This document shows positions 18,353 through 36,200 of a stretch of 64,000 nucleotides of DNA, one piece after another. The DNA lies in contig OY282373.1 of NCBI GenBank assembly GCA_958295805.1, positions 1,335,001 to 1,399,000 on the forward strand. Reading direction: 5' to 3'. A model generated the notes under the pieces. It was not told the DNA's origin, ran no database searches, and worked only from the letters and a program-made list of their open reading frames with translations. The position numbers and the translations under genes are program-made. Position 1 is the first letter of the stretch. Every line of letters begins with the position of its first letter. The DNA is from an uncultured Nitrospirales bacterium (lineage in GTDB: Bacteria > Nitrospirota > Nitrospiria > Nitrospirales > UBA8639).

Positions 18353-18362
18353 GCAGGACGCG

Positions 18363-18869
18363 ATGCTGCGGGCAAAATATCAAAACGTCATCGATGATCT
18401 GTTAAGCCGCTATCCGGTGAAACAATCGGCGTTGTTGCCCTTGTTGAATCTGGCGCAAAAGGAAGAGGGGTACGTGAGTCAGGCCGCGATGAAGGAAATT
18501 GCCGGCATTCTGGATCTCACCCCTCCTCAAGTGTTTGAGACGGTCACGTTTTATACGATGCTCAGTCTCAAACCCATCGGGAAATTCCACGTCCAGGTGT
18601 GCCGGTCGTTAATGTGCGCGTTGGTGGGAGCCGACAACCTGCTCGGATGGTTGCAGAAACATTTGGGAATTGGAGTTGGGCAAACCACTCAGGATAAGAT
18701 GTTCACCCTCAGTGCGGTAGAATGTCTGGGGTCCTGCGGCACCGGGCCGATGTTTCAGATCAACGACGACTATTACGAGCGGCTCACGGAAGAAAAAGTC
18801 GGGCGGATTCTCGAAGACTTGAGACAAACCGGCGACTGCGCCATGAAAAGCGGACCGTTTTTATTGTAG
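18363..18869 (+). CDS. nuoE: NADH-quinone oxidoreductase subunit E
   Basis: The protein of about 168 residues has the NuoE thioredoxin-like [2Fe-2S] motif: VCRSLMC (Cys-x4-Cys) then VECLGSCGTGP (Cys-x3-Cys), after an N-terminal helical region with LLNLAQKEEGYVS. It binds cluster N1a beside the NADH site on NuoF. I choose ATG 18363, with AGGA 4-5 bp upstream, over the in-frame GTG 18342 that overlaps nuoCD. A family B hairpin with GAAA loop lies between this gene and nuoF. Confidence 0.95.
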   Translation: MLRAKYQNVIDDLLSRYPVKQSALLPLLNLAQKEEGYVSQAAMKEIAGILDLTPPQVFETVTFYTMLSLKPIGKFHVQVCRSLMCALVGADNLLGWLQKHLGIGVGQTTQDKMFTLSAVECLGSCGTGPMFQINDDYYERLTEEKVGRILEDLRQTGDCAMKSGPFLL

Positions 18870-18882
18870 CCGTTTGAATTGC

Positions 18883-18909
18883 CGTCATTCCCGCGAAAGC
18901 GGGAATCCA
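18883..18909. repeat. Family B hairpin with GAAA tetraloop between nuoE and nuoF
   Basis: Stem ATTCCCGC (18887-18894), loop GAAA, stem GCGGGAAT (18899-18906). A GNRA loop on an 8-bp G+C-rich stem would make a very stable RNA hairpin in the nuo mRNA. It is part of the dispersed family B repeat and creates a false N-terminal extension if nuoF is called from an earlier codon. Confidence 0.85.
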
Positions 18910-18930
18910 GAATTTGAAGGTATCCTCACG

Positions 18931-20247
18931 ATGAAGACGTTTGATCCCATTCTTTTGAAAAACATGCAGCAACCCGGGTACACGGGGTCTCTTGCGGAGT
19001 ATGAACGGGCCGGAGGGTATCAGGCGTTGAAACAGGTCCTGGCGGGCGTCCCGCCGGATGACGTGATCGACCTGGTGAAAAAATCCGGCCTGCGCGGTCG
19101 GGGAGGCGCGGGATTTCCGACCGGGGTGAAATGGGGCTTCATCCCCAAGGATCATCCCGGGCCGAAATATCTGTGTTGTAACGCCGATGAAAGCGAGCCC
19201 GGGACGTTCAAAGACCGTCAGTTGATGGAACGCGACCCCCACCAGGTGCTCGAAGGCATTGCCATTGCCTGTTATGCGATTGGTGCGCAGACGGCCTACA
19301 TCTACATCAGGGGTGAATTCCGGCTTGGGGCGAAAATCCTGGAGCGTGCCATTGCGGAAGCACGAGAAGCCGGGCACGTGGGCGCCGATGTGTACGGCAG
19401 CGGCGTGACCATTCAGATTTACGTCCACGCCGGGGCCGGAGCGTATATCTGCGGTGAGGAAACTGCGTTGTTGGAATCCTTGGAAGGCAAGCGAGGCAAG
19501 CCGCGGACCAAGCCGCCCTTCCCCGCCACGCACGGACTCTACCAGAAACCCACGGTCGTCAATAACGTCGAGACGCTGGCCAACGTTCCGCACATCGTGA
19601 AGCGCGGGAGCGACTGGTTTGCCTCAATCGGGTCCCCGCCGAAGAGCACGGGCACGCGGATCTTCTGTTTGAGCGGCCACGTTTGCCGTCCCGGCAATTA
19701 TGAACTGCCCGTGAACGCGACGTTCCGGGATCTCATTTATGAGCTTGGCGGAGGAATGCGGTCCGACAAACCGCTCAAAGCCTTTATTCCGGGCGGGGCA
19801 TCCGCGCCGTTTTTGACCCCGGACCACGTGGACGTGCAACTGGACTTTGAATCGGTGGCCTTGGCCGGGTCCATGTCGGGGTCCGGTGGGGTGACCGCGA
19901 TGGAAGAAGGCACGAGCATGGTGTGGGCGGCCCTTCGGCTGATGGAATTTTTCTATCATGAATCGTGTGGAAAGTGTACGCCGTGTCGTGAAGGCAGTGC
20001 GTGGATCGTGCAGATTTTACAACGAATTCAGAACAAACAAGGACGACGGGAAGATTTAGGAACACTCACGGACGTTTGCGGAAACATCGGCGGACGGACC
20101 GTGTGCGCGTTCGGCGACGCGGAAATCGCCCCGGTCCTGAGTACGCTGAAATATTGGCGGCACGAATATGAGGCGTTGATTGAGGAGGCGGAGACCCTCA
20201 ACGCCGGCAGGAAAGCGAAAGACATTCCGGTGCTCAGTGTGTCGTAA
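18931..20247 (+). CDS. nuoF: NADH-quinone oxidoreductase subunit F (FMN/NADH-binding)
   Basis: Starting at ATG 18931 the protein has about 438 residues, normal for NuoF. It shows the FMN/NADH binding elements (LRGRGGAGFPTGVKWG, CNADESEPGTFKDR, GAGAYICGEETALLESLEG) and the N3 [4Fe-4S] ligands ESCGKCTPCREG with a fourth Cys in TVCAFGDAE. NuoF accepts hydride from NADH and feeds the iron-sulfur chain. GAAGG lies about 11 bp before the chosen start; an upstream in-frame extension is only a translated family B repeat. Confidence 0.96.
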   Translation: MKTFDPILLKNMQQPGYTGSLAEYERAGGYQALKQVLAGVPPDDVIDLVKKSGLRGRGGAGFPTGVKWGFIPKDHPGPKYLCCNADESEPGTFKDRQLMERDPHQVLEGIAIACYAIGAQTAYIYIRGEFRLGAKILERAIAEAREAGHVGADVYGSGVTIQIYVHAGAGAYICGEETALLESLEGKRGKPRTKPPFPATHGLYQKPTVVNNVETLANVPHIVKRGSDWFASIGSPPKSTGTRIFCLSGHVCRPGNYELPVNATFRDLIYELGGGMRSDKPLKAFIPGGASAPFLTPDHVDVQLDFESVALAGSMSGSGGVTAMEEGTSMVWAALRLMEFFYHESCGKCTPCREGSAWIVQILQRIQNKQGRREDLGTLTDVCGNIGGRTVCAFGDAEIAPVLSTLKYWRHEYEALIEEAETLNAGRKAKDIPVLSVS

Positions 20248-20256
20248 GAACGGGTC

Positions 20257-22977
20257 ATGACCATGCCACAGACGCAAAAAACGTTGACGGTGACGATTGA
20301 CGGAATCAGGACGCAGGTGCCGGACGGCACGCTCGTGATCGAGGCGGCCCGACGCGTGGGCGTCATGGTGCCGCATTTCTGTTACCACCCGAAGTTGAAG
20401 CCCGACGCGAATTGCCGAATGTGCCTGGTGGAGATTGAAAAGATTCCCAAACTCCAGACCTCGTGCAGCACCCGCGTGGCCGACGGCATGGTCGTGCGAT
20501 CCTCGGTGCCGCACGTCGAGGCTGCACGGAAATCCGTGCTGGAATTGTTGTTGGGCAACCATCCACTGGATTGTCCGGTGTGCGATCAAGGCGGCCGCTG
20601 TGACCTGCAAGATTTTTCGCACGAATACACGCCCACCGTCAGCCGGTTCAAGGAACTGAAGCGCGTGTTTCCGAAACAATACCTTGGCTCGGTCATTGAG
20701 ACGCAAATGAATCGGTGCGTGTCGTGTATGCGCTGCGTGCGGTATTGCGACGAAGTGATGGACGCAAAGGCACTGGCCGCCGTCGGACGGGGCACGTTGA
20801 CTCAGATTACGCACTGGAGCGGCAACGAACTCGAGTGCGACATGTGCGGCGGCTGCATTCAGATTTGTCCGGTCGGGGCCATCACCAGCCGGTTGTCGAT
20901 GTACGACTATCGTCCGTGGATGCTGAAACGAACGGAGACCATCTGTTCGTTTTGCGGGGACGGGTGCCAGATCACGGTCCAACGAAAGGACGATCAATTG
21001 ATCGAAGTGAACTCGGCGCTCGGCGCCGGGCGGAACAACGGCGATCTCTGCGCGCGCGGATATTTCGGTTATCACGCTGGCGCCCATCCTGATCGCGTGC
21101 AACACCCGCTGATTCGTCAACCCGATGGCTCCTTTGCCGCAGTCACCTGGGAGGACGCCTTGGAGCACGTCGCCCGGAAGTTACTGACGCTGAAGTCGGC
21201 CTATGGGTCCGATGCGATTGCCGGGCTGATGACGGCCCGGTGTACGAATGAAGACATGTACGTGTTTCAGAAATTCATGCGACTCGTGGTCGGGACGAAT
21301 CAGATCGACAGCAGCGCGCGGTACGGCTACGTCAACGGGGTGCGGGCGCTTCGGCGCGTGCAAGGCACCCATCGATGGACGGTGCGCTATGAGGACGTCC
21401 TGCAAGCAGATGGGATCATGCTGATCGGTACGAACGTCCATGAGACAAATCCCATTACGGCGTTACAGGTGAAGCAAGCCGTAAAGCGCAACGGTGCCAC
21501 GCTGATGACGCTGGAATCTCTGCTTCCGGTCCGCTCGACCGTGAGTAATATTACGACGCTGTCCCGGCATCATCTGACGGTACGGAACGGCCGGTTTGAC
21601 GCTGCGATTGTGGGACTCCTCAAGGCGGTGTGCGAATTGCAACTGGTCAACGCGGAGGTCGCCGAACGGGCCCCGGAGTTCGTGCAGACGATTCAGGCCA
21701 AAGTCGCCGGGGTGTCGTGGCAGACCATCCACGAGCAATCCGGCCTTCTGCAACGGGACGTGGAGGCCGCGGCGCGCGCGTATGGGCAGTCCCGTCGGGC
21801 CGTCACGTTGGTTGGGCAAGACGTCCTTCGTGCCGTTGGCGGAGAAGCCATGGTGACCAATCTCCTGGACGTGCAGATCCTCACCGGTCATCTTCAACGC
21901 GAAGGCTCGGGGTTGGGGTGTCTGGCTGAAGAAAATAATGAGCAGGGAGCCATAGAAATGGGGGTCACGGCTGAATATCTGCCGGGTCCGTCGCCTCTCG
22001 ATGAGACGGGGAGCACGGCCGCGTTCGCGCAAGCCTGGGGCCAGGCCCTGCCGACGGGAGCCTCGGCCACCCTCATGCACGTGTTGCGTCGAGCCAAAGC
22101 CGGTGACGTTAAAGCGTTGTTCATCGTTGGGGAAAATCCCGTGGCATCGCTGCCGCCTGACGCCGCGGTGACGGACGCCCTGGATGCCTTGGACTTTCTG
22201 GTCTGTCAGGAACTGTTTTTAACGGAAACCGCGAAGCGTGCCCACGTGGTGTTGCCGGCCTGCTCGGCCATGGAAAAAGACGGCACGTTTACGAATACCG
22301 AAGGACACGTCCAGCCCGTGCGTCAAGCGGTTGAGCCCGTGGGTGAGAGTCGGCCGGATTGGGAAATGTTTTCGGCCCTGTCCGTGTTGATGGAACACCC
22401 GATTGAATACGGCGACGTCAAAGACGTCTTCAAGGAAATACGTCGAATCATTCCCGGGTATGGGCTGTTGGGTCCGGCTTCCACGCCGCAGCCCGTCAAC
22501 GCCGATGTGGTGGCCCGCTACGTGGACGGGGGGTTCAAAGAAGACGTTGACCGGCGGTATACGCTGAATCAGCCGACTCCGGAGTCACAAGGGGGCATGA
22601 CGTTGAAGTTGCTCCAATCCGTCTATCATTCAGGAAAATACAGCACGCGCGCGAAAGGGTTGATGGAAGTGCAAGGGGAGGGACTGCTGCAAATCAACGC
22701 TTCCGAGGCGACCCGATTGGGCGTTAAGGAAGGCGACGCAGTGTGCCTCTCCAACGAGCACGGACGGGCCACGGTTTCCGTCACGCTGAATGACCGCGTG
22801 CCCGACGCCGTGGCGTGGTTTCCCGAACACTTCGACGAACCCGTGCGGCCGCTGTTCTCGTTGACGGTTGATCCGCAGACGCACGTGCCCGTTTGGAAGA
22901 CGACCCACGTGACGATCACGAACGTGAATGACCGCCCCGCAGGTGAAGGAGAAATCCATGACGTGATGTCATTCTGA
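20257..22977 (+). CDS. nuoG: NADH-quinone oxidoreductase subunit G
   Basis: The 906-residue protein opens with a [2Fe-2S] ferredoxin domain (HFCYH, NCRMCLVE, TSCSTRV), then the His-Cys3 region (HPLDCPVCDQGGRCDLQ) and two [4Fe-4S] motifs (CVSCMRCVRYC, CDMCGGCIQICPVGA). A molybdopterin-oxidoreductase-like body begins with CSFCGDGC plus a distal Cys (DLCARG), the ligand set of the extra N7 cluster. It continues to a C-terminal MopB-binding-like domain. This is the electron-wire subunit of complex I. The stop codon TGA at 22975-22977 lies inside a family A repeat (GTCATTCTGAGC), so the last residues may derive from it. Confidence 0.95.
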   Translation: MTMPQTQKTLTVTIDGIRTQVPDGTLVIEAARRVGVMVPHFCYHPKLKPDANCRMCLVEIEKIPKLQTSCSTRVADGMVVRSSVPHVEAARKSVLELLLGNHPLDCPVCDQGGRCDLQDFSHEYTPTVSRFKELKRVFPKQYLGSVIETQMNRCVSCMRCVRYCDEVMDAKALAAVGRGTLTQITHWSGNELECDMCGGCIQICPVGAITSRLSMYDYRPWMLKRTETICSFCGDGCQITVQRKDDQLIEVNSALGAGRNNGDLCARGYFGYHAGAHPDRVQHPLIRQPDGSFAAVTWEDALEHVARKLLTLKSAYGSDAIAGLMTARCTNEDMYVFQKFMRLVVGTNQIDSSARYGYVNGVRALRRVQGTHRWTVRYEDVLQADGIMLIGTNVHETNPITALQVKQAVKRNGATLMTLESLLPVRSTVSNITTLSRHHLTVRNGRFDAAIVGLLKAVCELQLVNAEVAERAPEFVQTIQAKVAGVSWQTIHEQSGLLQRDVEAAARAYGQSRRAVTLVGQDVLRAVGGEAMVTNLLDVQILTGHLQREGSGLGCLAEENNEQGAIEMGVTAEYLPGPSPLDETGSTAAFAQAWGQALPTGASATLMHVLRRAKAGDVKALFIVGENPVASLPPDAAVTDALDALDFLVCQELFLTETAKRAHVVLPACSAMEKDGTFTNTEGHVQPVRQAVEPVGESRPDWEMFSALSVLMEHPIEYGDVKDVFKEIRRIIPGYGLLGPASTPQPVNADVVARYVDGGFKEDVDRRYTLNQPTPESQGGMTLKLLQSVYHSGKYSTRAKGLMEVQGEGLLQINASEATRLGVKEGDAVCLSNEHGRATVSVTLNDRVPDAVAWFPEHFDEPVRPLFSLTVDPQTHVPVWKTTHVTITNVNDRPAGEGEIHDVMSF

Positions 22978-23042
22978 GCCGTAGGCGAAGAATCTGGGGC
23001 TAGGGCTGAGATTCTTCGTCGCTTCGCTCCTCAGAATGACAG
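22968..23042. repeat. Inverted pair of family A repeats overlapping the nuoG stop
   Basis: GTCATTCTGAGCCGTAGGCG then AAGAATCT on the left is mirrored by GAGATTCTTCG..CTCAGAATGACAG on the right, forming a long imperfect hairpin. The left arm contains the nuoG stop codon. A 24-codon frame at 23064-23135 between here and nuoH is open, but I have no evidence it is translated. Confidence 0.75.
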
Positions 23043-23159
23043 GGGAGGGTGACAGAGAATGAAATGGTGTCTGAACCGACGTCGTCCGCAGTATTGGCTG
23101 AACAGACTCTCATTCAGGTTTATGTGTATCCATGACAATTCACATCAAGGAGATTCTCC

Positions 23160-24224
23160 GTGTTTGATGCCGGCATTAAACTCGCTTTGACCTTATCGCA
23201 AATCGGGGTGGTGATGGGCGTGGTCCTGCTGACCGTGGCCGCGCTCACCTTATTGGAACGCAAGGTGCTGAGTTGGATGCAGGACCGGATGGGCCCCATG
23301 GAAGTTGGGCCGTATGGCGTCTTGCAGCCGGTGGCGGATGGGCTGAAATTGTTTTTCAAGGAAGACATCATTCCGGCCGGCGCCAACAGGATCATGTTCA
23401 GTCTGGCCCCGATTCTCGTGTTGGTGCCGGCGTTGATCGGGTTTGCCGTCATTCCATTCGGCCCGGATTGGACGGTTGAAGTCCTGGGTGTGGAATTCAA
23501 GCCCTTCGTCATCAGCGATATCAACGTCGGCGTCCTGTACGTGCTGGCGTTTGCCTCCATTGGGGCATACGGCATCATCCTCGGCGGATGGTCGTCCAAC
23601 AGCAAATATTCATTGTTGGGCGGATTGCGATCCGCCGCCCAGTTGATCAGCTATGAATTGAACGTGGGGCTTGCCATTGTCGGAGTCCTGTTGTTGTCGG
23701 GCAGTCTGAGTCTGGTCACCATCAGCGAAGCGCAAGCGGGCGGTTTCTGGCATTGGTATGCGTTCGATCCCTTGCCGTTTCCACAATTCGTCGCCTTTGT
23801 CGTGTTTTTGATTGCCTCGGTCGCCGAAACCAATCGCGTGCCCTTCGACCTTCCCGAAGCGGAAAGCGAATTGGTGGCGGGCTTCTTCACGGAATACAGC
23901 GGCATGAGGTTCGCCTTCTTCTTTCTGGCGGAATACGCGAACATGATCCTGGTGTCGTGCATGTCCACCGTGTTGTTCTTCGGGGGATGGCATGCTCCGG
24001 TTCCGTTTTTGCAAGCCCCCGGGGATTTTGCCTGGATCACGGGAATTTTCTGGTTTACCGTGAAAGTCTACGGTTTCTTGTTTTTATTCTTCTGGTTGCG
24101 TGCCACGTTGCCGCGATTGCGCTATGACCAGTTGATGCGGTTCGGGTGGAAGGTGCTGTTGCCCATTGCCTTGGGGAACGTGGTGGTCACGTCGATTCTG
24201 GCGTATATTTTCCCGAATTCATAA
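23160..24224 (+). CDS. nuoH: NADH-quinone oxidoreductase subunit H
   Basis: The 354-residue membrane protein has about eight hydrophobic helices and NuoH signatures: LLERKVLSWMQDRMGPMEVGP, the ADGLKLFFKEDIIP segment, and ETNRVPFDLPEAESELVAGF with the acidic residues of the E-channel. NuoH sits between the peripheral arm and the antiporter-like subunits and lines the quinone chamber. The start is GTG 23160, decided by a strong AAGGAG site 7 bp upstream. Confidence 0.96.
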   Translation: MFDAGIKLALTLSQIGVVMGVVLLTVAALTLLERKVLSWMQDRMGPMEVGPYGVLQPVADGLKLFFKEDIIPAGANRIMFSLAPILVLVPALIGFAVIPFGPDWTVEVLGVEFKPFVISDINVGVLYVLAFASIGAYGIILGGWSSNSKYSLLGGLRSAAQLISYELNVGLAIVGVLLLSGSLSLVTISEAQAGGFWHWYAFDPLPFPQFVAFVVFLIASVAETNRVPFDLPEAESELVAGFFTEYSGMRFAFFFLAEYANMILVSCMSTVLFFGGWHAPVPFLQAPGDFAWITGIFWFTVKVYGFLFLFFWLRATLPRLRYDQLMRFGWKVLLPIALGNVVVTSILAYIFPNS

Positions 24225-24243
24225 CGACAGGGCAGGGAAAGCG

Positions 24244-24783
24244 ATGACATTCAAGAAGTGGATCAAGTCTCTCATCTTTTTCGAAATCCTCATGGGGATG
24301 AAAGAGACGATGAAGCATTTTCTGAACTATCGTCCCATCACGTTGGAGTATCCTCACGTCAAAAAATCCCTGCCTGACAATTATCGCGGGATGTTGGGCT
24401 TGCTCCGCTATGACGACGGGACGGAGAAATGCGTGGGCTGTGATTTATGTGAAGCGGCCTGTCCTTCTCGCGTGATTCGCGTGGTGAGTGCCGAGGTGCC
24501 GGGGGAACCCACGAAGCGATACGCCAAAGACTACGACATGGACATGACGCGCTGTCTGTTCTGCGGGTTGTGCGTCCAGGCGTGTCCGGTGGACGCCTTG
24601 GGGATGTCGCAGGAATTTGAGTGGGCCGTCTACGATAAACGTCATTTACAGTTGAACAAACAACAACTCCTGGCCATTGGAGATCGAGCATTTCCTGAAC
24701 GGGAAAAACGCTTGGAATTTCAACATCCCAACGTTGCCTATTTTAACGTCTCCTTCAAGGATATTCCTGAAAAGGAGTGTTAG
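24244..24783 (+). CDS. nuoI: NADH-quinone oxidoreductase subunit I
   Basis: The 179-residue protein has an amphipathic N-terminal segment and two classical [4Fe-4S] ferredoxin motifs, CVGCDLCEAACP and CLFCGLCVQACP, that bind clusters N6a and N6b. I use ATG 24244, just downstream of an AGGGAAAG sequence and 19 bp after nuoH; the frame remains open further upstream into nuoH but that extension is not plausible. NuoI passes electrons toward N2 on NuoB. Confidence 0.95.
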   Translation: MTFKKWIKSLIFFEILMGMKETMKHFLNYRPITLEYPHVKKSLPDNYRGMLGLLRYDDGTEKCVGCDLCEAACPSRVIRVVSAEVPGEPTKRYAKDYDMDMTRCLFCGLCVQACPVDALGMSQEFEWAVYDKRHLQLNKQQLLAIGDRAFPEREKRLEFQHPNVAYFNVSFKDIPEKEC

Positions 24784-24857
24784 GGGCAATCGATTTGCCT
24801 GCCGATGGTCGTCTTCTTGTCCAACCCATGCGCCGGTAGCGGTAGAAACGTGTAACC

Positions 24858-25376
24858 GTGGCAACGCTTGTTTTTGTGTATTTTTCCGGGATCATTCTTC
24901 TGACCGCCTTGCTCGTGGTGGTGCTGCGCAACCCCATCCATAGCGCCCTGTCCTTGCTGGTCATGTTTTTTCACGTGGCCGGACTCTACGTCACGCTACA
25001 CGCCGAGTTTTTAGCCGCCGTTCAAATCATCGTGTATGCGGGGGCGATCCTGGTGCTCTATCTGTTTGTCGTGATGTTACTGAACGTGAAACGCGAAGAG
25101 CAGTACAGTCGTCAGGGAGTCGTGGCCTTGTTTCTTGGCGTGGTGTTGTTGACGGAAGCCGGTTTGCTGGTCGTAAGCCGAGGCTTGACCGTGGCACCTC
25201 CGATACCCGAAGGGGAGGGCACCAAGATCGTGGGGAACACGGAATCCATCGGAGAAGTCTTGTATTCCACCTATTTATTCCCGTTCGAGATTGCCTCGCT
25301 CATTTTGCTGGTCGCCATGATCGGGGCGGTCATCCTGACCAAGAAAGGCGTGCTGGAGTCCAAGTCCTCTCTCTGA
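24858..25376 (+). CDS. nuoJ: NADH-quinone oxidoreductase subunit J
   Basis: The 172-residue protein has five hydrophobic helices and the NuoJ signature HAEFLAAVQIIVYAGAILVLYLFVVMLLN (the conserved pi-bulge helix region, split here for brevity: AAVQIIVYAGA and LFVVMLLN). Start GTG 24858. It lies 74 bp after nuoI. Instead of being followed directly by nuoK, as in nearly all nuo operons, it is followed by an unrelated DNA methyltransferase gene. Confidence 0.94.
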   Translation: MATLVFVYFSGIILLTALLVVVLRNPIHSALSLLVMFFHVAGLYVTLHAEFLAAVQIIVYAGAILVLYLFVVMLLNVKREEQYSRQGVVALFLGVVLLTEAGLLVVSRGLTVAPPIPEGEGTKIVGNTESIGEVLYSTYLFPFEIASLILLVAMIGAVILTKKGVLESKSSL

Positions 25377-25453
25377 GGAATTTGGTCAAACCGATCAAGC
25401 ACCACGTTTCATCAGATAGCTGAAAGATTCAAGAATGATCTGATTATGAAACC

Positions 25454-26428
25454 ATGAAACACAAATCTCCAAGAAACCAAACGCTGATGTGTCACAAAGA
25501 AGAAATTGACCGGCTGTCAGGTCATATTCGTTACGTCGATAATCTGGTCGGCATGAAGGATATTCGTGAGAAAATAATTTGCGGCGACACGTTTGACGTG
25601 GCAAAAAACTTGCCCAGGGGTTTTGTCGATCTCCTTATTTTAGACCCACCCTATAATCTCGCCAAAGACTATAACGGCCGACTCTTCAAAGAAAAAGAGA
25701 AGACGGATTATCAGCAATGGTTTCAGCGTACCGTTGAAGTCTTGATGCCGACTCTCAAGTCAACGGCAACGGTGTACGTGTGCTCCGATTGGAAAACGTC
25801 CGTTCTTATTGCTCCGATTCTTGAAGCGTCTTTCCACGTTCGCAACCGGATTACCTGGGAAAGGGAAAAAGGACGCGGTGCGCAATTAAATTGGAAGAAT
25901 AATACGGAGGACGTGTGGTTCTGTACCGTTTCTGATGACTACGACTTTGACGTGGATGCCGTGAAAGTAAAACGAAAGGTCATCGCGCCGTATAAGATAA
26001 ATGGAAAGCCGAAGGATTGGAACCAGGAAGACGGTGGAAACTATCGCTTCACTCATCCATCCAACGTCTGGACTGATATAACCATTCCATTTTGGTCCAT
26101 GCCGGAAAATACCGATCATCCAACACAGAAACCTGAAAAACTGATGGCAAAACTTATTCTGGCGAGTTCGAAGAAAAACGGGTTTGTGTTTGATCCTTTC
26201 CTGGGTAGCGGGACGACCGTCGTCGTCGCGGCAAAGTTGGGGAGGAATTTTTGTGGTATAGACCTGAATAAGGAATATTGTTGCTGGGCTCTGAAACGCT
26301 TGGAGATGGTCGCTTCTGATTCAACCATTCAGGGATATACGGACGGTGTGTTCTGGGAACGCAATTCTCTCAATAATCAGCCCGTCAGCAAATTCCAATC
26401 CTTCAAACAGGAAGATCTTCAGTTATGA
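25454..26428 (+). CDS. Beta-class DNA methyltransferase (probably N6-adenine), orphan
   Basis: The 324-residue protein carries catalytic motif IV DPPYNL near residue 67 and the SAM-binding motif I DPFLGSGTT in the C-terminal third, preceded by HPTQKPEKLMAKLI. This IV-then-I order defines beta-class amino-methyltransferases such as M.HinfI and CcrM; DPPY favours N6-adenine. No restriction endonuclease gene is adjacent, so it looks like an orphan that may act in gene regulation, replication timing or protection. It is inserted between nuoJ and nuoK in the same orientation and so is likely co-transcribed with complex I. Its codon-pair habit (NAC before GTN) resembles the core genes, suggesting long residence. 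The start may also be ATG 25487. Confidence 0.88.
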   Translation: MKHKSPRNQTLMCHKEEIDRLSGHIRYVDNLVGMKDIREKIICGDTFDVAKNLPRGFVDLLILDPPYNLAKDYNGRLFKEKEKTDYQQWFQRTVEVLMPTLKSTATVYVCSDWKTSVLIAPILEASFHVRNRITWEREKGRGAQLNWKNNTEDVWFCTVSDDYDFDVDAVKVKRKVIAPYKINGKPKDWNQEDGGNYRFTHPSNVWTDITIPFWSMPENTDHPTQKPEKLMAKLILASSKKNGFVFDPFLGSGTTVVVAAKLGRNFCGIDLNKEYCCWALKRLEMVASDSTIQGYTDGVFWERNSLNNQPVSKFQSFKQEDLQL

Positions 26429-26506
26429 AGTCTTCTTTCTACTCTGACGGCTGGGTTTTTGCGTTATGAAAATAAGCACAATCGAAATATTCGATGAGGC
26501 GGTCTC

Positions 26507-26812
26507 ATGACCGTACCCGTGGAGTATTATCTGGTGCTGAGCGGGCTGGTGTTCCTTATTGGGCTCGTGGGCGTGCTGGTTCGGAAAAACCTGATTGTCA
26601 TCCTGTTGTCCATTGAGCTGATGCTCAATGCCACGAACATCAATTTTGTGGCCTTTTCCGCCCACCTGGGGAGTTCGGCCGGGCAAGTTTTTGTGTTCTT
26701 CGCGTTGACGGTGGCTGCCGCGGAAGTGGCCGTGGGCCTTGCCATCATCATTGCCCTGTACCGCCATCATTCCAGTATCAACGTCGACGAGTTCCATTTA
26801 TTGAAATGGTAG
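26507..26812 (+). CDS. nuoK: NADH-quinone oxidoreductase subunit K
   Basis: The 101-residue, three-helix protein has the NuoK features: YLVLSGLVFLIGLVGVLVRKN, IELMLNATNINFVAF with the conserved membrane Glu, and TVAAAEVAVGLAII with the second conserved Glu. NuoK is the smallest antiporter-like (MrpC-type) subunit. It is separated from nuoJ by the methyltransferase gene and lies 4 bp upstream of nuoL. Confidence 0.95.
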   Translation: MTVPVEYYLVLSGLVFLIGLVGVLVRKNLIVILLSIELMLNATNINFVAFSAHLGSSAGQVFVFFALTVAAAEVAVGLAIIIALYRHHSSINVDEFHLLKW

Positions 26813-26816
26813 CGTC

Positions 26817-28712
26817 ATGCTGTATGCCTTGATTCCCATCCTGCCCTTGGCGGCGTTCATTGTGCTCAGCTTGGCCGGACACGTCATCCGGGACAGGGCG
26901 CATCTGCTCGCGGTGCCTGCCGTGGGATTCTCCTTTCTCCTGTCGGTCTTGGCTTTTGCTGAAGTCGCCGGCGGCCACGTGCTGGAAATTCCCCTCTACA
27001 CCTGGGCGGCGTCCGGTGATCTCACCATTCGCCTGGGGTTCTACGTGGATCAGTTGACCGCGGCCATGTTGTTGCTGGTGACCATCGTCAGCGGATTGGT
27101 CCACGTCTATACCATCGGGTACATGCACGGGGAACCGGGTTACGCGAGATTTTTCGCCAATATCGCGTTGTTTACCTTCTCCATGCTGATGTTGGTCATG
27201 TCTGATAATTTCCTCCAACTCTTCGTCTTCTGGGAAGCGGTCGGGTTGTGTTCGTATTTGCTGATCGGGCATTGGTATGACCGCCATTCTGCACGAGCGG
27301 CGGCCACAAAGGCCTTTATCGTCAATCGAGTCGGCGACTTCGGATTTCTGTTGGGCATCCTGTTGGTGTTTGTCGTCTTTGGGACGTTGCAGTACCAGCC
27401 GGTCTTTGCCGAAGCCGCCGGACAAGTCGGCACCACCATCGATCTTCTTGGAACGGTGGGCGGCGGATGGGAAGTTTCCGTGATGACCGTGATTTGCCTG
27501 CTGCTGTTCGTCGGTGCGGTCGGCAAGTCCGCGCAAGTTCCCCTGCACGTGTGGTTGCCGGACGCCATGGAAGGCCCGACGCCAATCTCCGCCTTGATTC
27601 ACGCGGCGACGATGGTCACGGCGGGGGTGTTCATGGTGGCGCGGCTCGCCCCGCTGTATAACGTGTCCCCCGTGGCGATGACGGTCGTGGCCGTCGTGGG
27701 AGGGCTGACCATGTTGGTCGGCGCCACGATTGCCCTGACCCAATACGACATTAAGCGGATCGTGGCCTACTCCACCTTGAGCCAACTGGGGTACATGATG
27801 ATGGCCTGTGGGTTGGGCGGGTACGTGGCGGGTCTGTATCACTTGCTGACGCACGGCGCCTTTAAGGCCTTACTGTTTCTGGGATGCGGGTCCGTCATTC
27901 TGGCGGTTCATCATGAACAGGACATGCGGCGCATGGGCGGCTTGAAAGAGAGAATGCCCATTACGTATTGGACCTTTGTGATCGGCTCGTTGGCCTTAGC
28001 CGGCTTTCCCTTGACCGCGGGCTTTTTCAGTAAAGACGCCTTGTTGTTGGCTGCGTGGAACGCCGGAACGTTGGGCCAAATTCTCACGGTACTGGGTATC
28101 CTGACCGCGGGTTTGACCGCGTTTTACAGTTTCCGCTTGGTGTTCGTGGCGTTCTGGGGAGAGTCTCGCGCTGATCCGCGTGACGCGGACCACGTGCATG
28201 AACAACCCTTCGTCGTGACGGCGCCACTGGTGGTGCTGGCCGTGCTCAGTATCCTGACCGGGTATCTGGGCATTCCGGAATTTTTGCAGCACGCCTTCCC
28301 GGGCAGTGCCGGCGAAGGGCATCATGGTGCCGCGGCCACGGGCATCATGGCGGTGGCAACGGTTGCCGGCCTGCTGGGCATTGCCGCGGCCTATATCCTG
28401 TACGTGAAATCGCCGGATCTTCCCGACCGTCTGATGCGTCGATGGCACACGTTCTATCAAGCCTCATTCAACAAATGGTACGTGGATGAGGCGTATGAAA
28501 AGGCGTTTGTGAATCCCACGTTTTCCTTCGCCGATCGCCTGTGGAAAAAAATCGACGTGGCCGTCATTGACAACGCGGTCAACGGCGTGGCTCGCGGGTT
28601 TGCCTGGTGGGGCTGGATGGCCCGTTTGATTCAGACCGGCGAAACCCAGAATTATGCGCTGGGCATGACGGTAGGGGCCGTCCTCATATTAACCGCCTAT
28701 GTCTTGTTCTGA
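26817..28712 (+). CDS. nuoL: NADH-quinone oxidoreductase subunit L
   Basis: The 631-residue antiporter-like subunit has about 14 core helices and the signatures FFANIALFTFSMLMLVMSDNF, FWEAVGLCSYLLIG, AQVPLHVWLPDAMEGPTP and LIHAATMVTAGVFM. The C-terminal part carries the long lateral helix and a final transmembrane segment that anchors it. It pumps protons at the distal end of the membrane arm. The length is typical. Confidence 0.96.
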   Translation: MLYALIPILPLAAFIVLSLAGHVIRDRAHLLAVPAVGFSFLLSVLAFAEVAGGHVLEIPLYTWAASGDLTIRLGFYVDQLTAAMLLLVTIVSGLVHVYTIGYMHGEPGYARFFANIALFTFSMLMLVMSDNFLQLFVFWEAVGLCSYLLIGHWYDRHSARAAATKAFIVNRVGDFGFLLGILLVFVVFGTLQYQPVFAEAAGQVGTTIDLLGTVGGGWEVSVMTVICLLLFVGAVGKSAQVPLHVWLPDAMEGPTPISALIHAATMVTAGVFMVARLAPLYNVSPVAMTVVAVVGGLTMLVGATIALTQYDIKRIVAYSTLSQLGYMMMACGLGGYVAGLYHLLTHGAFKALLFLGCGSVILAVHHEQDMRRMGGLKERMPITYWTFVIGSLALAGFPLTAGFFSKDALLLAAWNAGTLGQILTVLGILTAGLTAFYSFRLVFVAFWGESRADPRDADHVHEQPFVVTAPLVVLAVLSILTGYLGIPEFLQHAFPGSAGEGHHGAAATGIMAVATVAGLLGIAAAYILYVKSPDLPDRLMRRWHTFYQASFNKWYVDEAYEKAFVNPTFSFADRLWKKIDVAVIDNAVNGVARGFAWWGWMARLIQTGETQNYALGMTVGAVLILTAYVLF

Positions 28713-28730
28713 TGAGGAGCGTTGACTGAC

Positions 28731-30296
28731 GTGGCCGTTCCGTCCGGCGGATTCCCGTGGATCACCTTGATCGTCTTGCTTCCACTCGTCGGAGTGGCGG
28801 GCATTCTCGCGGCGAAAGAAGAAATGGCGAAATGGGTGACCTTCGGCGTCTCATCGCTGGTGTTCCTTGTGTCGCTTCCCCTGTGGGCCATGTTCGATGA
28901 CGCGACGCCGGCCATGCAGTTCGTGGAAAAACATCACTGGATTGCGTCGCCGTCCATCAATTACGCCGTGGGCGTGGACGGCATCAGTCTGCCCCTGGTG
29001 TTGATGACCACTTTCTTGACGCCGCTCTGCGTCCTGGTGTCCTGGACCGCGGTCGAGACGCGGGTCAAAGAATTCATGATCAGTCTGCTCGTGATGGAAA
29101 CCGCCACGGTCGGCGTGTTTGTGGCGTTGGACTTCGTGCTGTTCTACGTGTTCTGGGAAACCATGCTGATTCCCATGTATTTGCTGATTGGAGTCTGGGG
29201 AGGACCCAATCGCGTCTACGCGGCCATGAAGTTTTTTTTGTATACCTTGGCCGGCAGCGTCCTGCTGCTGGTGGCGATTATCGTCCTGTACGTCTACGCG
29301 GGTGAACGTTCGTTCGACGTGCTCACGTTGAGCCACGCCGTGTATTCGCCGTCGCTCCAGGCGTGGGTGTTCTGGGCGTTCTTTGTCGCCTTTGCCGTCA
29401 AGGTCCCGATGTTTCCCTTTCACACGTGGTTGCCGGATGCACACGTGGAAGCGCCCACCGCCGGCAGCGTCGTCCTGGCGAGCGTGTTGCTGAAACTGGG
29501 CACCTATGGGTTTTTACGTTTCTCCCTGCCCATGTTGCCCGACGCCACCCAGCGATTTACCACGGTGGTGATGGTCCTATCGGTGGTGGCCATCATCTAC
29601 GGGGCCTACATGGCTTTTGCTCAGGCCGACCTGAAAAGGTTGATTGCCTATTCCAGCGTGAGCCACATGGGATTCGTCACGTTGGGAATCTTTGCGTTGA
29701 ACGCGCAGGGGATTGAAGGCGCCATCCTGCAAATGGTCAATCACGGCATCACCACCGGCGCGCTCTTTTTGTGCGTGGGGATGATTTATGAGCGGACGCA
29801 CAGTCGGGAGATCGTCGATAATTCCGGATTAGCCAAACCCATGCCGATCTATGCCACGTTCCTCGTGATCTTCGGCTTGTCATCCGTGGGATTGCCGGGC
29901 ATGAACGGCTTCGTCGGCGAATTCTTCGTGCTGGTCGGGACGTTCACGTGGAGCAAGGTGGCCGCGACCTTGGCGGCCTTAGGAGTCATTCTCGCGGCCG
30001 TGTACATTTTATGGATGTTACAGCGCGTGGTGTATGGCGTTCCGGCCCAACACGTGGCCTCGAAGCTGTATGACCTGAACTGGCGTGAAATCGGCACGTT
30101 GGTGCCGCTGGTGGTTCTGGTGTTCTGGATCGGGCTCTATCCCAAGCCGTTTATGGACGTGATGCACGCGAGCGTCGAGAAGCTCATTCACCAGGACGTC
30201 AAGGTGATGCTGGTGGAGGCTGAACCCTCATCCTTCCCGCCAACGCCCGTGACCCCCGACGTCATTGCCTCTGCCGCGGAGGCTGAAACGCGATGA
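28731..30296 (+). CDS. nuoM: NADH-quinone oxidoreductase subunit M
   Basis: The product of about 521 residues is an antiporter-like subunit with DFVLFYVFWETMLIPMYLLIG, KVPMFPFHTWLPDAHVEAPT and SVSHMGFVTLG. I prefer GTG 28731 because GAGGAG (28714-28719) is 11 bp away; the in-frame TTG 28722 would leave only 2 bp. The 3' end overlaps nuoN by 4 bp (GATGA context), implying coupled translation. Confidence 0.95.
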   Translation: MAVPSGGFPWITLIVLLPLVGVAGILAAKEEMAKWVTFGVSSLVFLVSLPLWAMFDDATPAMQFVEKHHWIASPSINYAVGVDGISLPLVLMTTFLTPLCVLVSWTAVETRVKEFMISLLVMETATVGVFVALDFVLFYVFWETMLIPMYLLIGVWGGPNRVYAAMKFFLYTLAGSVLLLVAIIVLYVYAGERSFDVLTLSHAVYSPSLQAWVFWAFFVAFAVKVPMFPFHTWLPDAHVEAPTAGSVVLASVLLKLGTYGFLRFSLPMLPDATQRFTTVVMVLSVVAIIYGAYMAFAQADLKRLIAYSSVSHMGFVTLGIFALNAQGIEGAILQMVNHGITTGALFLCVGMIYERTHSREIVDNSGLAKPMPIYATFLVIFGLSSVGLPGMNGFVGEFFVLVGTFTWSKVAATLAALGVILAAVYILWMLQRVVYGVPAQHVASKLYDLNWREIGTLVPLVVLVFWIGLYPKPFMDVMHASVEKLIHQDVKVMLVEAEPSSFPPTPVTPDVIASAAEAETR

Positions 30297-31768
30297 CGAT
30301 ACCTCTTGCCGACCTGGTCGTGATTCTACCGGAGTTGATCGTCGTCGGTGCGGCCTGCCTGTTGTTGGCGTTGGCTCCCATCACCCCGTCAACCAAGAAA
30401 GATTGGTTGGCGTGGATGAGCGTGGCGACCCTCGTGGTCTGTTTCATCGTCACGATGAACGGCATGGGTGAGCGCGTGTACGCGTTCAGCGAACTCGTGG
30501 TGGTGGATGGATATGCTTCGTTCTGGAAATTGTTGCTCTACGTCGTGAGCGGCATGATCGTGTTGCTCTCCATCGGCTATCTCAAGGAAGAACGGATTGA
30601 CTTGGCCGAATTCTACGGGTTTGTGCTGCTCTCCTTGACCGGCATGATGATTATGGTGTCCGGGGCGGACCTGTTGGTCGTGTACCTCGGCATCGAGTTG
30701 ATGTCGATCTCGCTCTACGTCATGGCCGGGTTTAAACGGTTTGAAGCCAAGTCCATGGAATCCTCGGCCAAGTATTTTATTCTGGGCGCGTTTTCCTCAG
30801 GAATCCTGCTCTACGGCATTTCGCTCATTTTCGGAGCGGCCGGCAGCACGCGGCTGGTTGAGATTGCCGCCGCGGTCAATGCGCGCGGCCTGAACGATTC
30901 GTTGGTGCTCATGGCCCTGATGCTGTTGATCGTCGGATTCGGATTCAAAATCGCGGCCGTGCCGTTTCACATGTGGACCCCGGACGTGTACCAAGGCGCG
31001 CCCACGTCCGTGACCGCGTTTATGGCCGTGGCCTCCAAAGCCGCCAGCTTCGGGGCGTTTCTGCGGGTGATGCTCGAAGGCTTCGGAGGCGTGAAACCGA
31101 ATTGGACCGGCCTGATTCTGGGCTTGTGTATCCTGACGTTGATCCTGGGCAATCTCGTGGCGATTGTGCAAACAAACGTCAAGCGGATGCTAGCGTATTC
31201 GAGTATCGCCCACGCCGGGTACGCGTTGATCGGCGTGGTCGTGGCGGGCTGGATCGGGACTGAAGCCGGAGCATCGTCACAAGGCGTCGCCAGCATGATG
31301 TTGTACTTGGCGATTTATTCCTTCATGACCCTGGGGGCCTTCTCCATCGTGGCGATTCTTCGACGAGGCGGGCTGGAAGGAGAAGACCTGGACGACTTTA
31401 CGGGGTTGGCCAAGCGCCATAAGGTCGTGGCGTTTGTCATGCTGCTCTTCATGGTCTCGTTGGCGGGCATTCCGCCCACTGCCGGATTCATCGGAAAATT
31501 CTATCTGTTCATGGCCGCGGTCAACGCCGGCCTGACCTGGCTGGCCGTGGTCGGCCTGATCTTTGCCGCAGTATCCGCGTTCTACTATCTACGAGTCGTG
31601 ATGGTCATGTACATGCGCGAACCCACGTCCGACCAGGAACTCGAAACGCGCCTCGCCTTGTCCCCCGCCGCCACGGTCGTGCTCGCCTGCGCCGTAGCCG
31701 GAGTCGTCATCCTCGGACTGTACCCCGGCCCCCTGGTCTCCTTCACCTCTTCCGCGGCACTGCCGTAA
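30293..31768 (+). CDS. nuoN: NADH-quinone oxidoreductase subunit N
   Basis: The 491-residue antiporter-like subunit has the signature SGADLLVVYLGIELMSISLYVM, KIAAVPFHMWTPDVYQGAPT and NVKRMLAYSSIAHAGYAL. It completes the membrane arm and is the last nuo gene; together with the upstream genes all 14 subunits (C and D fused) are present. The following 190 bp are repeats rather than a recognisable terminator. Confidence 0.96.
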   Translation: MTIPLADLVVILPELIVVGAACLLLALAPITPSTKKDWLAWMSVATLVVCFIVTMNGMGERVYAFSELVVVDGYASFWKLLLYVVSGMIVLLSIGYLKEERIDLAEFYGFVLLSLTGMMIMVSGADLLVVYLGIELMSISLYVMAGFKRFEAKSMESSAKYFILGAFSSGILLYGISLIFGAAGSTRLVEIAAAVNARGLNDSLVLMALMLLIVGFGFKIAAVPFHMWTPDVYQGAPTSVTAFMAVASKAASFGAFLRVMLEGFGGVKPNWTGLILGLCILTLILGNLVAIVQTNVKRMLAYSSIAHAGYALIGVVVAGWIGTEAGASSQGVASMMLYLAIYSFMTLGAFSIVAILRRGGLEGEDLDDFTGLAKRHKVVAFVMLLFMVSLAGIPPTAGFIGKFYLFMAAVNAGLTWLAVVGLIFAAVSAFYYLRVVMVMYMREPTSDQELETRLALSPAATVVLACAVAGVVILGLYPGPLVSFTSSAALP

Positions 31769-31965: not shown

Positions 31966-32394
31966 TTAGCGGTGCTTGGTCACCGGCTTGAAAGGGTTCA
32001 CGTGACGCACTCCCGTCGGCGCGATATGTTTCACGTTGCGTGTCACGACGACAAGGTCGTGGACAAGCGCGGTGGCGGCGATGAGTCCATCGACGTCCGG
32101 AAGAGAATCGGGAATGCCAAGACGGCCCCATTGCTCTGCGACGGCTTGATCGACGTCCAGAATACGATCCTGAAACCGATCCAGAATCCGATCTAACCAC
32201 GTGCCAATAATGCGGGCGGTCTTCGGGTCGCGGCGGTGAATGCGTTCGACGCCGCGCCGCAGTTCGCCCAGGGTCAGGACGCTCAGGAACACTTCCTGTG
32301 GCTTGTGTCTCTGGAACCAATCCAAAACGAGGGGATGCGCACGCTCACGCTTGCGGAGTTCAGACAACACGTTGGTGTCAATGAGGTAGTTCAC
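31966..32394 (-). CDS. vapC: VapC-type PIN-domain toxin
   Basis: The 142-residue protein is a PIN-domain ribonuclease. It has the N-terminal IDTNVLSELRK (first catalytic Asp), a middle acidic residue in TLGELRRG, and a C-terminal DVDGLIAATALVHDLVVVTRN block with further catalytic acids. VapC toxins cleave tRNA or rRNA. The start overlaps the stop of the upstream gene by 4 bp, the standard antitoxin-toxin coupling. The upstream partner is however not a simple VapB but a longer protein with an added winged-helix region. Confidence 0.9.
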   Translation of the reverse strand: MNYLIDTNVLSELRKRERAHPLVLDWFQRHKPQEVFLSVLTLGELRRGVERIHRRDPKTARIIGTWLDRILDRFQDRILDVDQAVAEQWGRLGIPDSLPDVDGLIAATALVHDLVVVTRNVKHIAPTGVRHVNPFKPVTKHR

Positions 32395-33234: not shown

Positions 33235-36200
33235 GTGCCTGAACAGCTTTTCACTCATTACTTTCTCTCCTACGGCATAAGGGCGACAACCGAGTGGAAG
33301 GCTTCAGTCGCCAAGCCGGAGGCATTTGCCGCCTTCAGGGACGGCATCTGTTCCCGTTACGAAGCCTTCGCCACGTTTCATGATCCTAATGAAGCCGTCA
33401 CCGAGCAAGAATTGATCCGGCCGGTTTTGGAGCTATTGGGATGGATGGATTACCTGCCGCAGCAAGGCATGATTCGCAACGAGGACGTTCCCGATCTTCT
33501 GCTGTTCTCCGACCCCGAGGCCAAAGAGCGCGCCGCCAAAAAACACAAGCCCAATGAACGTTACTGTGACGCCGCGGTTGTCGAAGAGAGCAAACGATTC
33601 CGATTGCCGTTGGACTCCCGTGGCGGAGACAACGGTACGCAGTCCAGAACGCCGCACGGCCAGATTCTCGGATATCTTTCGACGGCCGAGATTGTTTCAG
33701 ACGGCCGAATTCGATGGGGCATCCTGACAAACGGCGGTACGTGGCGACTCTACGATTGCCGTTGCCGACCCCGGGCCAGCGGGTACTTTGAAGCCGACCT
33801 GGGAGAACTGATTCAACCCGACCGCGAAGACGACCTGCGCGTGTTCTATCTCCTGTTCCGCCGAGACTCCTTTATTCCGGAGCATGGGGCCACGACCAGC
33901 TTCCTGGAAGCGGCGTTGATCGAGGGGCGCCGCTATGAGGATCAGGTTGCCCAAGACCTTTCGTGCGTGGTCTTCGATCGCGTGTTCCCCAGTCTCGTCC
34001 AGGCGATGGCCGACGCCACGGGCCTGTCTGCGTGCCCCGCACAGGCAGGCGAGAGTCTCGCACAAATCCGGGAGGCAGCCCTGATTTTTTTGTATCGACT
34101 GCTCTTCGTGCTGTACGCCGAGGACAGGGGACTCCTACCGGTCAACGACTCGCGTTACGACGACTACGGGTTGCGAAAACGAGTACGTGACGACGTTGCG
34201 CGGAGGACAACCGACGGAGACACGTTCTCAAGCCACGCCACCAGCTACTATGACCATCTGATGACGCTCTTCGGGCTTATTGACAAGGGCGATGCGTCCA
34301 TCGGCCTGCCGCCGTACAACGGCGGTCTGTTCGCGTCCGAGACCGCTGCGTTGCTGGAAAGCATTCGCTTGGCCGATGCGAAGATCGCTCCGATCATCGA
34401 CGACCTGAGCCACTCGAAAGACCTGAACCAGGAACGCCGCTTTGTCAATTACCGCGACATGTCCGTCCAGCAACTCGGCTCAATCTACGAACGGCTTCTG
34501 GAGCGCGAGCCGGTCCGCGATGGGAACGGAAACATCGTCATACGACCAAACCCATACGCCCGAAAGGACAGCGGCAGCTTCTTTACGCCCCAGGAACTTG
34601 TCGATCTGATCGTTGACCGGACGTTAAAACCGCTGGCGGAGGAGCGTCTCAAAGCGTTTAAAGCCAAGGCCGTTGAACTGAAACGCGACCGTCGTCCAAA
34701 GGACGCACGACGAGCCGACCTGCTCAAGCTCGACCCGGCTGAGGCCATCCTGAACTTGAAAGTCCTGGACCCGGCCATGGGAAGCGGCCACTTCCTGGTC
34801 ACCGCGGTGGACTTTCTGTCCGACTACGTCGCCCACCTGATCGAATCCACGCCGGCGGTGCCCGAATGGCTCAATGGCGAGTACGTGTCGCCGCTGGTTC
34901 AGCGCGTGGAGACGATTCGCAGAGACATCCTGCAACGGGCAAAGGAAGCCAACTGGGTGATGGATGAGACCCAACTGACCGACCAGGCTATTATCCGCCG
35001 AATGGTCCTGAAACGCTGCATCTACGGCGTAGACAAAAATCCCCTGACGGTGGAACTGGCGAAAGTGTCGTTGTGGCTGCACAGTTTCACCGTCGGCGCG
35101 CCGTTGTCTTTCTTGGACCACCACCTGCGTTATGGCGATTCCCTGGTCGGCTTGCGGGTGTCGGAGGCAACCGAAGACTTACGGAACATCGCCGAGCTCT
35201 TTCTCTCAAGTGCCATTGCCGGAGCCGAGGCCGCCACTGAAGGGATGCAGCGCATTGAGGAATTGTCCGATGCCGACATCGCCGAAGTCCGGGAGTCGGC
35301 AAGGCTGTTCGATGGCGTCGATACGACGACCGCGGAGTTGCGTGGCTTGCTCGACTTTCTCTGCGGTTTCCGGTGGCTGACCGCGGGCATGAAAAGGGGA
35401 GACCGCGATGCGTTCAAGAAGCAGCACCTGTCGGAACCGATCGGGCGGTTTCCAGCGAAAATCTATGAACTTCTCGCCAATGGTCCGAGCGTCATCACCG
35501 CCGAGTCGTCAGAAGAAGGGGAGGCTCTGTTGTCGAAGTTTGCCGAATTGTGGGATCGAGCCAGAGACGTTGCCGACCGGGAAGGCTTTCTGCACTGGGA
35601 GGCGGCCTTTCCTGGGGTGTGGCGCCATTGGCAAAACGTCCGCCCGGAGGGAGGCTTTGACGCGGTGATCGGCAACCCGCCTTGGGACCGCATCAAACTT
35701 CAGGAAGTGGAATGGTTTGCGACTCGTGACCCGGAACTTGCGTTCGCTCCGACTGCCGCGGCGAGGAAGGCGGCCGTTCAGCGGGTACGAGAGCAGGGGG
35801 CGTTGATTGCAGACCAGTTTGACGCGGCCAAGGAACAAGCCGAGAGCCTGAGCCGGATGGTTCGGTCGTCTGGCCATTACCCCTTGCTCAGCGGCGGCGA
35901 TATCAACCTGTACTCGCTGTTCGTGGAGCGGGCCATGAATCTGCTCAAACCCGACGGTTTGGTAGGCCTGCTCACGCCGTCGGGTATCTACGCCGACAAG
36001 ACTGCCGCCAAATTTTTCAAGTCCGTTTCCACCAGCGGACGCATCGGTGGCCTGTTTGACTTCGAGAATCGCCGCCTTGGAACAGAACTGCCGCCTTTTT
36101 TCCCAGACGTGGACTCGAGGTTCAAGTTCTGCGCCCTCATCTTCGGTGGAGAGAATCGACGGTTCGATGAAACCACGTGTGCCTTCTTCCTGCACGACAC

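Follow-up and report, generated by a model that had tools for sequence, protein, structure and literature searches.

In DNA methyltransferases of the beta class the catalytic DPPY motif comes first and the SAM-binding motif after it. It is disputed whether solitary methyltransferases originate by decay of a restriction-modification pair or by arrival alone, and the evidence brought to bear is usually statistical. Oliveira et al. (2014; PMC4176335) surveyed 43 pan-genomes and inferred that degradation of a system seldom gives rise to a solitary gene. For the solitary gene described here, the solved relatives found by sequence matches to the PDB are 8urk (E 3e-36), MboIIA (1g60, 5e-22), DpnA (5hek) and RsrI (1eg2). 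With RsrI, MboIIA, DpnA and YhdJ it shares the PF01555 domain and a DPPY motif ahead of DPFxGSGTT. YhdJ, which we take to be its best-scoring NCBIfam model, nevertheless has a cut-off of 292 bits against 142.6 for our gene, about half, and the score against CcrM also falls far under the NCBIfam cut-off. Judged by these scores, the methyltransferase is of a subfamily separate from YhdJ and CcrM.

The gene lies among the nuo genes of an uncultured Nitrospirales bacterium (G000), in a window of 64,000 nucleotides, by which we mean the whole stretch of DNA that was analysed. The features concerned are the following.

16601-31765: the nuo genes of the window.
24858..25376, + strand: nuoJ, the 5' neighbour of the methyltransferase gene (Pfam Oxidored_q3, 147.6 bits).
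25377..25453: spacer of 77 nt between nuoJ and the methyltransferase gene, with no terminator match and no detectable similarity to its counterpart in the congener G008.
25454..26428, + strand: intact beta-class N6/N4 DNA methyltransferase gene, 324 aa, ATG start (ORF list, Pfam PF01555).
26425..26469, + strand: stub of a deleted restriction endonuclease (family A, see below), reading MKSSFYSDGWVFAL and then a stop, its ATG overlapping the methyltransferase stop.
26450..26506: spacer left after the proposed deletion, similar to the G008 sequence between an endonuclease remnant and nuoK.
26507..26812, + strand: nuoK, the 3' neighbour (Pfam Oxidored_q2, 107.9 bits).

The methyltransferase matches PF01555 (N6_N4_Mtase) at 142.6 bits against a curated cut-off of 26.7 and carries DPPYNL at residues 64-69 and DPFLGSGTT at residues 247-255, so that DPPY stands N-terminal of the SAM-binding FxGxG motif, the order of the beta class. 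A sequence-only reading of this DNA had named a beta-class enzyme with these two motifs between nuoJ and nuoK, and the ORF, Pfam and motif evidence all agree with it. The enzyme is probably active, because it retains the residue at every one of the 113 columns conserved to 95% or more in an alignment of 79 full-length homologues. From its family membership we would expect it to methylate DNA, probably at adenine N6 within the site of its lost endonuclease. The source genome has 20 PF01555 matches in total.

Around the insertion the nuo genes run nuoCD, E, F, G, H, I, J, K, L, M, N (nuoCD was assigned by Pfam, and E, F, G, H, I, L, M and N are ORFs with congener homologues in order), which upholds the earlier statement that the operon is in standard order and intact on both sides. 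The methyltransferase gene ends 78 nt before nuoK and shares the strand of nuoJ and nuoK. It is the only gene between them in the ORF list, with no adjoining transposase or integrase, and no direct repeats were found across the two insertion ends beyond a possible 3-bp CTC; the locus thus lacks the marks of an insertion with a long target duplication or of carriage by an insertion sequence. A promoter scan of the methyltransferase region gave 3 matches, where 2.2 +/- 1.6 are expected, none of which stands out, and neither of the gaps that separate the gene from nuoJ and nuoK contains a terminator match. Co-transcription with the nuo genes is plausible on these grounds, and read-through from nuo would be the simplest source of a methyltransferase transcript. 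As nuoK overlaps nuoJ in most other genomes, the insertion would also have broken a probable translational coupling between them. Just past nuoN there is a PIN-domain gene (31966-32394, - strand), presumably VapC-like by eye, and further on a gene for a type IIG-like restriction-methylase (Eco57I) of 1358 aa (33235-37311, + strand).

A single scan of GTDB genomes yielded 110 relatives of the methyltransferase, of which the best 80, with 58-77% identity to the window copy, were kept; they come from Gammaproteobacteria, Chlorobiota, Nitrospinota, Binatia, Poribacteria, Cyanobacteria, Planctomycetota, Chloroflexota and others. Neighbour clustering and profile scans identified two unrelated endonuclease families directly 3' of these homologues. 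Counted with a profile built on 22 checked family-A copies, an intact endonuclease follows the methyltransferase in 45 of these best 80 loci (25 family A, 20 family B), while family A is broken in 13 (one with a short flank), family B is broken in three (among them the marginal L130, whose E 9e-3 match overlaps the methyltransferase end and is to be counted as none) and family B is cut by the contig end in one. No endonuclease was found in 14 loci whose flank measures 1.3 kb or more, nor in four with a shorter flank. Crude gene calls, which counted an antisense ORF as the window's own downstream neighbour, put the neighbours of the homologues on the same strand in 50 of 74 cases upstream and 43 of 72 downstream; this is nothing striking, and a family preference for insertion inside operons was rejected. 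Phage and plasmid records held no close copy of the methyltransferase (best 55.3% and 51.5%). Close copies are carried by three viral contigs (60, 61 and 49%); one of the three has a complete family-B endonuclease, and on another, viral contig L183, only the first 24 residues of family B remain (E 4e-4).

Family B, of about 386 aa, is recognised by the PADLOC model REase_II (E about 1e-150). Family A, of about 222 aa, often has a start codon that shares the letters ATGA with the methyltransferase stop, and an alignment of 22 proteins has MKSxFYYxG at the N-terminus and an invariant D-x-K-T-H. By sequence alone there is a faint hint of HincII (Pfam E 0.047; PDB E 0.2). The structure predicted from 22 sequences (pLDDT 90.9) matches R.SwaI with Z 19.1 and an rmsd of 3.3 over 211 residues at 11% identity, a match also made by Foldseek, and matches HincII and EcoRV with Z about 14 and about 13. 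According to this model, family A is an endonuclease of SwaI/HincII-like fold. It differs from SwaI and HincII in having only 10-17% sequence identity to them, so that their recognition site cannot be carried over, and the window copy differs further in being cut down to a stub.

That stub begins MKSSFYSDG, and these first 9 codons fit the family-A N-terminus except for an S at Y7, which is invariant in the alignment of 22 family-A proteins. We scored it with a position-specific N-terminal profile made from 22 family-A endonucleases. Its first 10 residues reach 23.6 bits, the highest of 1,911 ATG-started 10-mers in the window (the next has 6.9), and true members of the family score 23.6-38.6. 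A search with the family-A profile HMM did not report the 9-codon stub, whose assignment draws on the position-specific score together with its location. As this score is far above that of the other 10-mers in the window, it indicates that an endonuclease was once present and was deleted from about codon 10. The sequence-only reading had stated that the methyltransferase has no nuclease partner; it was right that no nuclease gene adjoins, but a stub of one does. With its cognate endonuclease reduced to a stub, the locus is not a complete type II restriction-modification system. It has instead what a solitary methyltransferase derived from such a pair would have, namely an intact gene and, beside it, a partner remnant in the usual place and frame.

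A profile search for family A in G000 and 58 relatives found no full-length endonuclease and only a C-terminal fragment in G000; a 21-residue remnant in G008, described below, lies under the reach of this search and was visible only in a local scan. The fragment in G000 (C1:440194-440370; L138 4195-4353, minus strand) encodes the end of a second family-A endonuclease, its C-terminal 60 residues. It has no methyltransferase nearby and is another relic of family A in this genome.

Comparison of the nuo operons of related genomes had been put forward as a check on the sequence-only reading, and its outcome was unfavourable to it. The insertion is absent from 12 of 13 congeners, in which nuoJ and nuoK overlap or abut and the junction is empty, and the junction is likewise empty at every one of the 18 loci sampled from other genera; an intact methyltransferase thus occupies the junction in one of the 14 genomes of the genus. 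In the wider taxonomic family, where 30 of 36 genomes gave a nuoJ/nuoK locus, the gap between the two genes is -16 to +2 in 28 of the 30, the exceptions being G000 (1133) and G008 (693). This is not the conserved locus across genus or family that would be expected of a housekeeping orphan methyltransferase of the Dam or CcrM type. At the G008 junction (L030) a methyltransferase of this family survives as its first 69 residues at 2085-2291 (64% identity), followed by three tandem copies of a repeat of about 70 bp at 2296-2520, inside the broken gene, and by the C-terminal 21 residues of a family-A endonuclease at 2551-2613 (E 4e-5), after which comes nuoK. From its sequence, this junction is the wreck of the same kind of restriction-modification pair. 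In the species tree G008 and G002 are sisters (support 100) and both group with G000 (82), and the nuoJ/nuoK junction of G002 is clean and empty.

Taken together, the intact gene, the in-frame stub, the pairing in relatives, the empty junctions of congeners and the wreck in G008 make it very likely that a type II pair entered the nuoJ/nuoK junction and subsequently lost its endonuclease by deletion, the methyltransferase being the relic half. A methyltransferase and a SwaI/HincII-like endonuclease, joined by an ATGA overlap, would have been inserted between nuoJ and nuoK in the G000 lineage, and a deletion running from about endonuclease codon 10 into the 3' spacer would then have left the methyltransferase frame whole. 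The counterpoint is that G002 is empty though it is the sister of G008, so that a single old insertion needs a later loss or recombination.

The empty junction of G002 also favours two independent insertions at this one position, in G000 and in G008, by members of a single restriction-modification family, to which we would give a chance not far short of even. The G008 fragment is equally close to L058 (44/69) and to the window (44/69), the window copy is as near to L057, L058 and L059 as to G008, and the upstream spacers of the window and G008 are dissimilar (17/80, none beyond chance). Against this, the junction and the orientation are exactly identical in the two genomes and the 3' spacers resemble each other beyond all shuffles: the anchored alignment of the window spacer with that of G008 scores 37.5, a value that none of 2000 dinucleotide shuffles attained, and without the last 8 nt 1 of 2000 attains the score. 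The 3' spacer of G008 is also like that of L058 (score 36), which makes it a possible part of the element itself. Either history may account for these data, a single shared insertion that G002 later lost or two separate entries at this junction.

A different possibility is that the methyltransferase was solitary before it arrived, deletion of the endonuclease having taken place in the donor and the stub having travelled with the gene. The three closest copies in the methyltransferase tree (L057, L058 and L064) have no intact endonuclease, and L057 is solitary, its stop overlapping purC; but L058 retains the C-terminal half of the endonuclease, which is a different deletion, and G008 keeps a C-terminal remnant at the same junction, implying that a pair entered there complete or nearly so. 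We regard a solitary arrival as unlikely. The copy in L057 (L057:5700-7200, from a gammaproteobacterium) is the closest relative among the best 80 of 110 homologues, at 77%; by eye, we take its neighbours to be a glnS-like gene on one side and purC, whose ATG the methyltransferase stop overlaps, on the other.

In G008 and G002 a DUF4268 gene lies between nuoI and nuoJ (L030:399-1385 and L037:2173-3156), which scores as the PADLOC candidate defence gene PDC-S11. This clade would thus have two defence-type insertions flanking nuoJ, as the DUF4268 gene sits on its other side. The DUF4268 gene was considered as a split partner of the methyltransferase and rejected; it is near none of the loci of the best 80 of 110 homologues, and it scores as PDC-S11.

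The methyltransferase gene differs from its surroundings in composition. Its GC is 0.458 and its GC3 0.522, against 0.509-0.601 and 0.636-0.792 in the nuo genes, and its codon fit of -1.212 is the worst of the set (nuo genes, -0.992 to -1.106). Low GC is weak evidence alone, since the whole gene family tends that way: among the best 80 of 110 homologues, 74 of 80 are likewise AT-richer than their own surroundings. A further property is the choice of NAC over NAT codons before valine. In the nuo genes the NAC/NAT counts are 74/3 before GTN and 226/238 elsewhere, and in the methyltransferase they are 7/0 and 19/35 (Fisher P 0.0015), so the claim that it shares the core-gene preference is confirmed (7 of 7 against 74 of 77). 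Homologues in other genomes (best 80 of 110) have 76/168 before GTN and 1780/2219 elsewhere. Sampled stretches of G000 (C1, L192-L196) give 502/55 before GT and 2631/2482 elsewhere; the habit is specific to the genus, being marked in most congeners, reduced in the nuo genes of G002 (35/9) and missing both from G008 (10/14) and from 18 loci in other genera of the family (66/133 versus 591/1291). It looks like codon context. A repair-driven cause, with ACGT enriched as DNA, was rejected, ACG over ACA before T being barely raised (243/22 versus 996/140). Since the gene has acquired or shared this habit, it would either have long resided in such a genome or have come from a congener. The earlier conclusion that it is "not a recent arrival" survives in part: the shared NAC habit speaks against a brand-new gene, but the gene is confined to its lineage, and 12 of 13 congeners have nothing at the junction.

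These results bear on the proposal that the gene has been domesticated as an epigenetic regulator and is under selection in the nuo operon because it makes methylation track respiratory gene expression. The gene is intact, without departures at the 113 conserved columns, it lies on the same strand as its neighbours with both gaps free of a terminator match, and it shares the host codon context. It is nonetheless intact in only one of 14 genomes of the genus, and the conserved residues are kept equally in copies that have an endonuclease. Intactness does not in any case prove selection: with the stub still legible, the deletion could be a recent event. We consider a regulatory role very improbable, and the earlier tie between methylation and respiration finds no support, as the gene is lineage-specific, has lower GC and a poorer codon fit, and carries a stub; no link was found. 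Its present use, if any, may be passive protection against endonucleases of the same specificity circulating in other bacteria. An apparent regulator in a respiratory operon would become a genomic accident, in which a pair landed and its toxic half was lost.

Loss of the endonuclease recurs in this family. A large endonuclease deletion beside a full methyltransferase is found in 7 of the best 80 of 110 loci (L058, L059, L095, L099, L112, L115 and L125), and the same type of deletion is present in the window and on viral contig L183. The methyltransferase tree contains at most 25 clades without an intact endonuclease, an upper figure inflated by the midpoint root, by MAG frameshifts and by loci without any remnant. 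Because the methyltransferase was the starting point of the survey, solitary endonucleases would have escaped it, and MAG errors inflate the frameshifts. Titles and abstract openings in the literature on methyltransferases in nuo operons and on decayed or mobile systems gave no match to this case.

Against the inference of Oliveira et al. (PMC4176335), this methyltransferase/endonuclease family looks like an exception in which decay has been repeated. A broader reading, which we hold tentatively and think somewhat doubtful, is that the endonuclease is repeatedly shed in place while the methyltransferase is kept as protection, in many phyla and even on a viral contig. Most solitary copies of this family would then be products of local decay, contrary to the general inference drawn in the pan-genome study. 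The locus is of moderate relevance to how orphan methyltransferases are made: the remnant is legible beside an intact gene, and relatives show many stages of the same decay. Compared with solitary methyltransferases known from endonuclease loss, the window, with its stub and its intact gene, appears to catch the process part-way; it is a clear and well-documented member of an already known kind, the decayed type II restriction-modification pair.
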